Shown piece after piece: positions 26,618-45,378 of a stretch of DNA of 64,000 nt. Origin of the DNA: Methanosarcinales archaeon Met12. GTDB lineage: Archaea > Halobacteriota > UBA148 > JAJOKI01. The position numbers were made by a program, and so were the translations under genes. Below the pieces are notes generated by a model. The model ran no database searches, was not told the DNA's origin, and saw only the letters and a list, made by a program, of their open reading frames with translations. How positions within the stretch are numbered: the first letter of the stretch is position 1; every line of letters begins with the position of its first letter. The stretch covers positions 372,001-436,000 of the forward strand of contig CP017966.2 in the NCBI GenBank assembly GCA_002813105.2, read 5' to 3'.

Positions 26618-26689
26618 TTATTTACGTCCAAAGCATATTAACCCTTAAGAATGCGCCGATAGTCTAGTGGCCATGACATGGGCCTTCCA

Positions 26690-27055
26690 ACAACCTTTTA
26701 AAAAAGGGTGGTTCCTGCTTCGCGGAAACACCTTCACTCTGCGTAGCAGAGGTGAAGGTTGATCAAAAAATGTGCTGCACTCGCTAACGCTCGGCAGCAC
26801 TAAGGAAATTCTCACAATAATCAACTACAAGAACGATCAACCTGCTCACTGCTCCGTGTGGCAGATGGAACATCTGCCACTCCGTCTAAATCTCCGGATT
26901 TAGTCGGCAGTGAGAGGGCCTCTACGAAGTAGCGGCTCCTGTTTGCAGGTTGGTTTGCAGGTTGGAACAGCGCGACCCCATGACCTATTGAGCGAAGCGA
27001 GATAGGTCGTCGAAATGATCAACCTGTTTGCAGGTTGGTTTGCAGGTTGGAAGAT
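26690..27055 (+). other. tRNA-Gly(UCC) intron, structured
   Basis: 366 nt with several hairpins. GGTGGTTCC...GGAAACACC (26708-26733) is followed by CCTTCAC-TCTGC-GTA-GCAGA-GTGAAGG (about 26732-26760); both are shared with the intron of tRNA-Gly(CCC). Further on are GTGCTGC...GCAGCAC (about 26771-26799), CCTATTGAG...GAGATAGG (about 26984-27005), and two copies of a GTTTGCAGGTTG doublet. No ORF is convincing. Confidence 0.75.
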
Positions 27056-27066
27056 AGCCCATGACC
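26938..27066 (+). repeat. Duplicated 3' splice-site region with 12-bp tandem doublets
   Basis: The segment CCTGTTTGCAGGTTG-GTTTGCAGGTTG-GAA occurs at 26938-26967 and again at 27023-27052. Each copy consists of two tandem GTTTGCAGGTTG units and is followed by a sequence ending in CCATGACC. Only the second copy has GAAG-ATA-GCCC and can form the splicing motif; the first reads GAAC and cannot pair with CUUC. Confidence 0.75.
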
Positions 27067-27106
27067 CGGGTTCAAATCCCGGTCGGCGCATTAAAGAGGA
27101 GTCCAA

Positions 27107-27418
27107 GTGAAGCAGAAAAGCTGGATACGCGACATGGCGAAACAGCGCATAGAAAGGCTGTTTGAACTTGCCGAACAGGAATTCAGGGAGCATCCAGAAA
27201 GGAGCGACATATATATCCACCTGGCAAGGCGAATCGGAATGCGCCACAACGTCAGGATTCCGAGAGAACTGAAGAGACGGATGTGCAGGCACTGTTACTC
27301 TTATCTCGTGCCAGGTGGCAACGCGCGTGTGCGACTGCGGGGAGAATACGTGGCAGTAACCTGCCTATCATGTAAAAAATTGATGAGATATCCATATGGA
27401 CAAAAAAAGGCTATATAA
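27107..27418 (+). CDS. rnp4: RNase P protein component 4 (Rpp21-like)
   Basis: 103 residues from GTG 27107 behind GAGGAG. The zinc-binding cysteines C-R-H-C and C-L-S-C-K are visible near residues 59-62 and 86-89. With the RNase P RNA it trims tRNA 5' leaders. It lies directly behind a tRNA gene and before yhbY, at the head of the long translation operon. Confidence 0.9.
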   Translation: MKQKSWIRDMAKQRIERLFELAEQEFREHPERSDIYIHLARRIGMRHNVRIPRELKRRMCRHCYSYLVPGGNARVRLRGEYVAVTCLSCKKLMRYPYGQKKAI

Positions 27419-27659
27419 ACTCAAGTCAGATGCGGCATTGCTCGACCCGGTTATGCAGGTTGGCAAAAACGGCGTTACGGAAATGCTTGCAGATGAGTTG
27501 AAAGGGCAATTGAAGAAGATGCGCCTTGTCAAGGTCAAATTCCTTAGGTCTGCTACGGATGGCGCAGGGATAGAGCAAGTTGCACAACAGCTCTCTCAAG
27601 CGACAAAATCCGAGTTAATCGAGATAAGGGGGAGAACTGCAGTATATTTTAAAAGATGA
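27396..27659 (+). CDS. YhbY/CRM-domain RNA-binding protein
   Basis: 87 residues in one CRM fold: V-G-K-N-G-V-T (residues 23-29) is the G-x-x-G-type loop. YhbY proteins bind pre-ribosomal RNA. The gene overlaps rnp4 by 23 nt, a common archaeal arrangement. Confidence 0.85.
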   Translation: MDKKRLYKLKSDAALLDPVMQVGKNGVTEMLADELKGQLKKMRLVKVKFLRSATDGAGIEQVAQQLSQATKSELIEIRGRTAVYFKR

Positions 27660-27740
27660 GCGATAGATTAATCAACTATCATATTTCCTTAGTAGGACGA
27701 ATATTATAAGTAGGTTCACGTTATTGAATGGAGGTTGAAT

Positions 27741-28163
27741 ATGACGACGGTTTATGATGTGCCAGCACATGAGCTCATAATTAAAGTAGCAGAGCACTTA
27801 AAGAAGAATGAAAAATGTACGCCACCTGAGTGGGCGGCTTACGTAAAAACAGGTGTGCACAAAGAGCTGTCACCGTTGAATTCTGATTGGTGGCATATCA
27901 GGTGTGCATCAATCCTCAGGCGAATATACATAGATGGCCCAGTAGGAGTGGAGCGGCTCAGATCATTCTATGGCGGGAGGAAAAACAGAGGGTCACGGCC
28001 CGAGCGATTCTTCAAAGGAAGCGGTTCAATTGCACGCAAAGCGCTCAGGCAATTAGAAGATATAGAGTACGTTCGCACCATGAAAAACGGCCGGGTCATC
28101 TCGCCACAAGGTAGGTCATTTCTGGATAAAATCGCAAATGAAGTTAAATCTAAATCTGCGTGA
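27741..28163 (+). CDS. rps19e: Ribosomal protein S19e
   Basis: 140 residues from ATG 27741, behind GGAGGTTG; an in-frame TTG at 27735 lies inside that site. P-P-E-W-A-A-Y-V-K-T-G-V-H-K-E near residues 34-48 and the D-W-W-H-I-R-C-A-S-I-L-R-R motif are S19e signatures. Small-subunit protein. Confidence 0.95.
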   Translation: MTTVYDVPAHELIIKVAEHLKKNEKCTPPEWAAYVKTGVHKELSPLNSDWWHIRCASILRRIYIDGPVGVERLRSFYGGRKNRGSRPERFFKGSGSIARKALRQLEDIEYVRTMKNGRVISPQGRSFLDKIANEVKSKSA

Positions 28164-45061: not shown

Positions 45062-45071
45062 TGCCAAAAAG

Positions 45072-45110
45072 TGCGGCTGCCGGGATTCGAACTGAAGGGT
45101 TACACCCTTT
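45072..45110 (-). pseudogene. tRNA-Gly 3'-end fragment
   Basis: The minus strand reads TTCGAAT-CCCGG-CAGCCGC-A, the 3' part of a T-arm and acceptor strand identical to tRNA-Gly(CCC) at 45197. The 5' side of the T-stem is wrong (TTCAG instead of CCGGG), and no matching 5' half lies upstream. It is a dead duplicate immediately downstream of the functional gene. Confidence 0.65.
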
Positions 45111-45196
45111 CAAAACCCGTGTCCTACACTCGCTTCGTTCGGAAGACCAAGACACTCTTTTAAAGTTGTGTTAAATGCTGCTTTGGCAAATCTAAA

Positions 45197-45378
45197 TGCG
45201 GCTGCCGGGAGTCGAACCCGGGCTTCAAGCTATTTCCGCAACCCTTAAAGTTTCCTTGTGTTTTTGATGAAACTTTACCTCTGCTACGCAGAGTAAAGTT
45301 GTTCCCGCAAAGGGGGAACCAACTTTTTTCTAAAAGTTTCTTGGGAAGCTTAAGTCCTAACCACTAGACTACAGCCGC
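45197..45378 (-). tRNA. tRNA-Gly(CCC) with a 110-nt intron
   Basis: Exon 1 is 45342-45378 and exon 2 is 45197-45231. Acceptor GCGGCTG/CAGCCGC, anticodon stem UAAGC/GCUUG, loop UUCCCAA with anticodon CCC, T-arm CCGGG-TTCGACT-CCCGG, discriminator A. The splice motif has UUCC:GGAA between bulges CAA and AUA; the inner helix has a mismatch. The intron (45232-45341) holds two hairpins homologous to those of the tRNA-Gly(UCC) intron. Confidence 0.9.

Follow-up and report, generated by a model that had tools for sequence, protein, structure and literature searches.

The closest described systems are the archaeal bulge-helix-bulge (BHB) tRNA introns, which are processed by EndA and RtcB and whose lengths are given as 11-129 nt in a review (PMC4090602). 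The tRNA-Gly(UCC) gene of Methanosarcinales archaeon Met12 shares with them the intron position 37/38, the canonical splice motif and the presence of the splicing genes in the genome, whereas its intron measures 366 nt, roughly three times the upper end of that range, and consists of repeats common to many tRNA loci; intron length is, for this class, a descriptive and not a defining property. A long archaeal tRNA-Trp intron is known to contain a box C/D guide RNA (PMC4090602), and the two cases are alike as long archaeal tRNA introns holding structured RNA. They differ in that the Gly(UCC) intron has neither box, and its structure is that of the repeats.

Whole-intron transposition of the Thermoproteales type offers another comparison. 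In the 2010 study, as described in PMC4033280, similar sequences occur in the introns of different tRNAs of one lineage, and whole introns have apparently moved, with a gain of new ones. In Met12, homologous intron contents are found in different tRNAs as well; most of the intron sites that we compared are common to relatives. These sites are old, and their contents have expanded by hairpin modules, which also lie at tRNA 3' flanks. Palindromic elements of Rickettsia, finally, are small palindromes which invade genes and RNA genes. The likeness to them, drawn by description alone, is that a 28-nt palindrome of the Gly(UCC) intron also sits elsewhere in the genome, whereas the main element keeps to tRNA loci.

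The tRNA-Gly(UCC) gene contains a canonical BHB intron of 366 nt
We analysed a window of 64,000 nucleotides (the whole stretch of DNA considered here, to which the positions below refer), taken from a genome that consists of a single contig of 1,067,436 bases and is 97% complete. The genome was surveyed through searches and tRNA-centred stretches. The gene and its splice motif are laid out as follows:

26653-27090, plus strand: whole tRNA-Gly(UCC) gene, 438 nt
26653..26689, plus strand: 5' exon, positions 1-37
26690..27055, plus strand: intron, 366 nt, canonical position 37/38 (BHB, spliced tRNA, ARAGORN -i800)
27056..27090, plus strand: 3' exon
26680..26695, plus strand: 5' half of the BHB, GGGC-CTTC-CA^A-CAACC
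27045..27060, plus strand: 3' half of the BHB, GGTTG-GAAG-AT^A-GCCC

An earlier note on this DNA had claimed a BHB intron at 37/38, a perfect spliced tRNA, an exceptional length and a highly structured intron without an ORF, and all of these points held. The coordinates proved exact, and the canonical motif forms 13/13 pairs across the stem, central and inner helices. The spliced product, GCGCCGATAGTCTAGTGGCCATGACATGGGCCTTCCAAGCCCATGACCCGGGTTCAAATCCCGGTCGGCGCA, is recognised by ARAGORN as Gly(tcc), and this mature tRNA is letter-identical to the spliced product in a genome of the same genus (G001). The fold of the transcript has an MFE of -190.9 kcal/mol (z = -9.95 in comparison to shuffles), and the intron contains no coding frame of note, the longest open stretch being 65 codons in antisense orientation. 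ARAGORN detects the gene with its 366-nt intron under the -i800 setting, while it was overlooked by default ARAGORN and by the Rfam tRNA model at gathering score.

The earlier note had also named an intact intronless tRNA-Gly(UCC) as a rival for the role of this gene. Searches of the 1.07-Mb genome with the gene itself, the tRNA covariance model and a T-arm pattern as queries yielded neither such a copy nor any other further gene for Gly(UCC). Since GGA codons are common (49 across seven window genes) and no other gene of this specificity turned up, the gene is needed. The genome encodes a splicing endonuclease EndA (a 385-aa frame with two domains) and one RtcB. Because of the BHB motif and the presence of both genes, we infer that the intron is excised by EndA at both bulges and that the exons are joined by RtcB. 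It can be concluded that the observation of the earlier note is confirmed and its interpretation partly supported; the genome-wide pattern described below had been missed.

A GTG-start ORF lies 17 nt past the tRNA and presumably resembles the RNase P subunit Rpp21; putative YhbY and S19e genes follow (window 26653-28163 for the tRNA and these ORFs), and because of this arrangement tRNA-Gly(UCC) may head an operon. The first gene downstream is kept in several relatives.

All intron nucleotides match other tRNA loci of the genome
Each of the 366 intron nucleotides has a match at other tRNA loci in this genome. The intron is composed of these modules:

26691..26769, plus strand: H1 hairpin module with nested hairpins, ending GGTTGATCAAAAA
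26772..26800, plus strand: H2 hairpin module, GTGCTGC...GCAGCAC
26835..26966, plus strand: nested-palindrome module, 97% identity to the intron of tRNA-Gln(UUG) along 133 nt
26880..26907, plus strand: small palindrome of 28 nt, CTCCGTCTAAATC-TCCG-GATTTAGTCGG
26982..27008, plus strand: H3 hairpin module, GACCTATT...GATAGGTC
27016..27049, plus strand: H4 repeated hairpin, TGATCAACCTG...CAGGTTG, which provides the inner BHB helix

H1 is common to the His, Thr(UGU), Arg(UCU), Leu(GAG), Leu(CAG), Gly(CCC) and Ile introns, and complete H1-H2-H3-H4 copies are present in other introns of this genome, as well as in genomes from two further families within the order. An inverted repeat, AGGTTGATCA/TGATCAACCT, flanks the inner part of the Gly(UCC) intron. 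The small palindrome has seven genomic copies, four of them away from tRNA genes; one copy (G000:C1:329204-329231) apparently lies inside a protein-coding region, and the others appear to be intergenic.

Oversized introns occur at many tRNA genes and are mostly shorter in relatives
Of the 31 matches that a genome search with the tRNA-Gly(UCC) gene returned, almost every one was located at another tRNA gene. Rebuilding pre-tRNAs around these matches and other T-arm hits revealed at least 11 tRNA genes with introns of 130-366 nt in this 1.07-Mb genome; the splice registers of the CAU, Ile and Gln(UUG) tRNAs were set by hand at 37/38. The introns found besides that of Gly(UCC) are given here with the lengths at the same sites in relatives:

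His: 310 nt, 37/38
Arg(UCU): 303 nt, 37/38 (66 nt in a relative)
Lys(CUU): 295 nt, 37/38 (27 nt in G005)
CAU tRNA: 290 nt, 37/38
Gln(CUG): 227 nt, 37/38
Leu(GAG): 216 nt, D loop
Gln(UUG): 199 nt, 37/38
Ile(GAU): 197 nt, 37/38 (Ile intron of 21 nt in a relative)
Tyr: 141 nt, 37/38 (25 and 30 nt in relatives)
Ala(UGC): 130 nt, 37/38 (Ala intron of 15 nt in a relative)
Initiator-like Met: 128 nt, 37/38
Thr(UGU): 120 nt, 37/38
Gly(CCC), window 45197..45378, minus strand: 110 nt, 37/38, with an H1 homologous to that of Gly(UCC)
Lys(UUU): 96 nt, 37/38 (132 nt in G001, ARAGORN reading)

In the window, Gly(CCC) is the second tRNA that bears an intron. How well the listed introns fit the canonical motif varies, with a short inner helix in several, and those of Tyr, Ala and Lys(UUU) contain hairpins other than the H1-H4 element. 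tRNA-Ser(GGA) seemingly has a D-loop intron as well as a second one at 37/38 (L037 1490-1632). Such non-canonical introns, in Ser(GGA) and in the D loop of Leu(GAG), coexist with the two-domain endonuclease.

At the tRNA-Leu(CAG) locus (G000:C1:701300-702600), which contains an intron in the D loop, the 3' end belongs to tRNA-Thr, and this leaves the acceptor stem unpaired. In G001 (G001:C15:1-800) the genes for Leu(CAG), Leu(UAA) and Thr(GGU) stand in a row. The anomaly could be a real deletion, a matter of unseen copies or a misassembly.

The earlier note had suggested scanning relatives for the same intron. The site was indeed found again, but the length mostly was not: the Gly(UCC) intron measures 55 nt in G001, 59 nt in G005 (another family) and 41 nt in G002, with a longer one of 161 nt in G008. 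The gene that follows downstream is the same one in those relatives that were checked. Shorter introns at the same sites, with exceptions such as Lys(UUU), indicate that the sites are old and that their contents mostly grew here, a length contrast that may be partly overstated since G001 is fragmented (120 contigs, one of which starts within an element copy) and repeat-rich introns were perhaps lost at contig ends.

The repeat is a structured multi-hairpin element associated with tRNA loci
We assessed the structure of the element in an alignment of eight copies, in which the Gly(UCC) and His rows were joined from pieces and the nested insertion was omitted. In this alignment 92% of cells pair, and 8 of the 25 pairs changed on both sides in comparison to 3.5 +/- 1.4 in shuffles, a control which can be inflated by relatedness. 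When partners were slid, at most 2 pairs had two-sided changes; this control retains relatedness, but favours a structure derived from these very sequences. The element is thus a structured multi-hairpin unit, supported by covariation.

A covariance model of the element, built partly from the Gly(UCC) intron itself, was then searched against 196 relatives. Its match in this intron is:

26755..27037, plus strand: covariance-model match, 68.3 bits (the model being partly built from it)

The element was found in 7 of the 11 genomes of the order, and the same search, whose filters may lose weak copies, gave no match in the 185 genomes of other orders. Among 30 matches, 29 fall within a tRNA intron or close to a tRNA 3' end (16/16 in the own genome and 13/14 elsewhere); the thirtieth, where a contig of G001 begins, lies directly upstream of a gene for tRNA-Leu. 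The Gly(UCC) intron of another family within the phylum has an H1-like hairpin, AAACTTTTT..AAAAAGTTTGATCAAAAA, and a similar sequence occurs just 3' of the gene. No report of the element was present in the literature searched, a coverage that mostly leaves out subscription papers.

Element copies look homogenised within each genome
In the Gly(UCC), Gly(CCC), His, Arg and two Leu introns of this genome, the apex of H1 takes the form ACTCTGC...GCAGAGGT, which recurs with one change in the Thr intron. In G009 the form is CTTCTGC...GCAGAAG and in G003 it is GTCTGC...GCAGAC. Orthologous Thr and Gly(CCC) introns differ between genomes, whereas different tRNAs within one genome agree, the exception being the own Ile(GAU) H1, which resembles the G009 form. 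A tree of ten H1 copies has modest support values. From these sequences, the copies look homogenised within each genome, and genome-specific forms of this kind are the mark of within-genome copying or conversion. In the initiator-like Met intron (G000:C1:333843-334045, complement), which has about 2.5 tandem copies of a 38-nt H1 unit, tandem growth is visible too.

Several tRNA 3' ends are duplicated 3' of the gene, with hairpin modules mostly between the copies:

Ser(GCU): L042, complement 380-640
Gln(UUG): L039, 560-645
Gly(CCC): window 45070-45200, minus strand
Thr(GGU), in G001: L153 (G001:C15:1-800), 470-640

These duplications resemble the scar of an insertion or of a tandem duplication.

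An old short intron was probably enlarged by a tRNA-associated repeat
In our opinion these results are best explained by an old, short 37/38 intron that was enlarged to 366 nt through insertion and duplication of the tRNA-associated multi-hairpin repeat, and we consider this probable. The ancestor of the single tRNA-Gly(UCC) gene would have had a short BHB intron at 37/38, as most relatives do (8-60 nt), into which the element was later inserted and then duplicated. Given the motif and the two splicing genes, EndA would still cut at both bulges and RtcB would ligate the exons. The splice helix would remain undisturbed because each inserted unit is a self-contained hairpin. Copying between tRNA loci would most simply proceed by recombination or gene conversion among introns with common ends, and the element may persist where RNA processing strips it from the mature tRNA, that is, in an intron or a 3' trailer. 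The simplest view is a passive one, in which self-contained intron hairpins are tolerated because they are cut out.

Folding calculations bear on the splicing step. An uninterrupted 8-bp helix, CTTCCAAC/GTTGGAAG, is thermodynamically favoured over the BHB by 5.5 kcal/mol. Since the BHB is also disfavoured by 2.3-5.6 kcal/mol in short-intron orthologues, the enlargement does not seem to hamper splicing by this measure. A comparison of BHB base-pair probabilities with those of shuffled intron interiors gave mixed results.

The repeats could also be miniature transposable elements, moved by a transposase or integrase that prefers tRNA genes. This overlaps with the enlargement just described; the route of spread is the sole point of difference. 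The inverted repeat which bounds the inner part of the intron and the several tRNA 3' ends duplicated around inserted modules fit such elements. However, a genome search for a mobilising enzyme of the Y1 (IS200/REP-type) transposase family (PF01797) found none, the intron copies have no consistent target duplication, and the two conserved module patterns have no exact match in IMG/VR viral contigs, so that we regard transposition as doubtful. A REP/RAYT-type palindromic element was rejected on the same search for the Y1 transposase.

Another reading of the confinement to tRNA processing sites is that of a selfish structured RNA element, spreading via the excised RNA, its reinsertion and its copying into DNA. 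Its removal from the mature tRNA by EndA and RNase Z would make it harmless. To us this seems unlikely.

The excised intron might instead be a functional RNA, such as a stable circle closed by RtcB, whose hairpins are conserved since the RNA works. A stable RNA of this kind had been proposed in the earlier note. The strong structure and the compensatory changes across element copies from three families speak for it, but palindromes that simply evolve as such give rise to paired changes too, and the intron is built from hairpins shared among tRNA loci, so that structure alone does not mark a dedicated stable RNA. Moreover, the presence of the element is erratic, with the same-site Gly(UCC) intron ranging from 41 to 366 nt among relatives, and modules are missing, duplicated or differently nested copy by copy. 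The intron matched no Rfam family, either at gathering score in the scan of the window or with E up to 5 at the locus, and the 366 nt contain neither box C (RUGAUGA) nor box D (CUGA). We hence hold a functional RNA to be quite improbable.

Three other intron types were considered and rejected: a group I/II self-splicing intron on these Rfam covariance-model searches of the window and the locus, a homing-endonuclease intron on the 65-codon antisense stretch, and a box C/D guide RNA intron on the box search.

An assembly artefact with misjoined repeats is very unlikely to account for the intron length. In its favour, modules are up to 97% identical between loci, the 3' end at the tRNA-Leu(CAG) locus is that of a Thr tRNA, and the searches found neither Leu(UAA) nor Thr(GGU) in a genome that uses UUA and ACC codons. 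Against it, both Gly(UCC) halves come from one tRNA whose product is identical to that of a relative, the remaining large-intron tRNAs have matching halves, and in independent genomes of the order there are introns of 140-161 nt, the majority of which contain these modules.

Significance
Archaeal tRNA introns are described as short, and here a small genome has at least 11 of 130-366 nt. Most of these oversized introns are built from one repeat family that is found only at tRNA genes and looks homogenised per genome. Genes of this kind can be missed by tRNA finders, as Gly(UCC) was both by default ARAGORN and at the Rfam gathering cut-off. The Gly(UCC) site, with introns from 41 to 366 nt, provides a natural series in which intron growth and the tolerance of the endonuclease can be studied, and the system lets one ask how a repeat stays confined to sites that are cleared by RNA processing.
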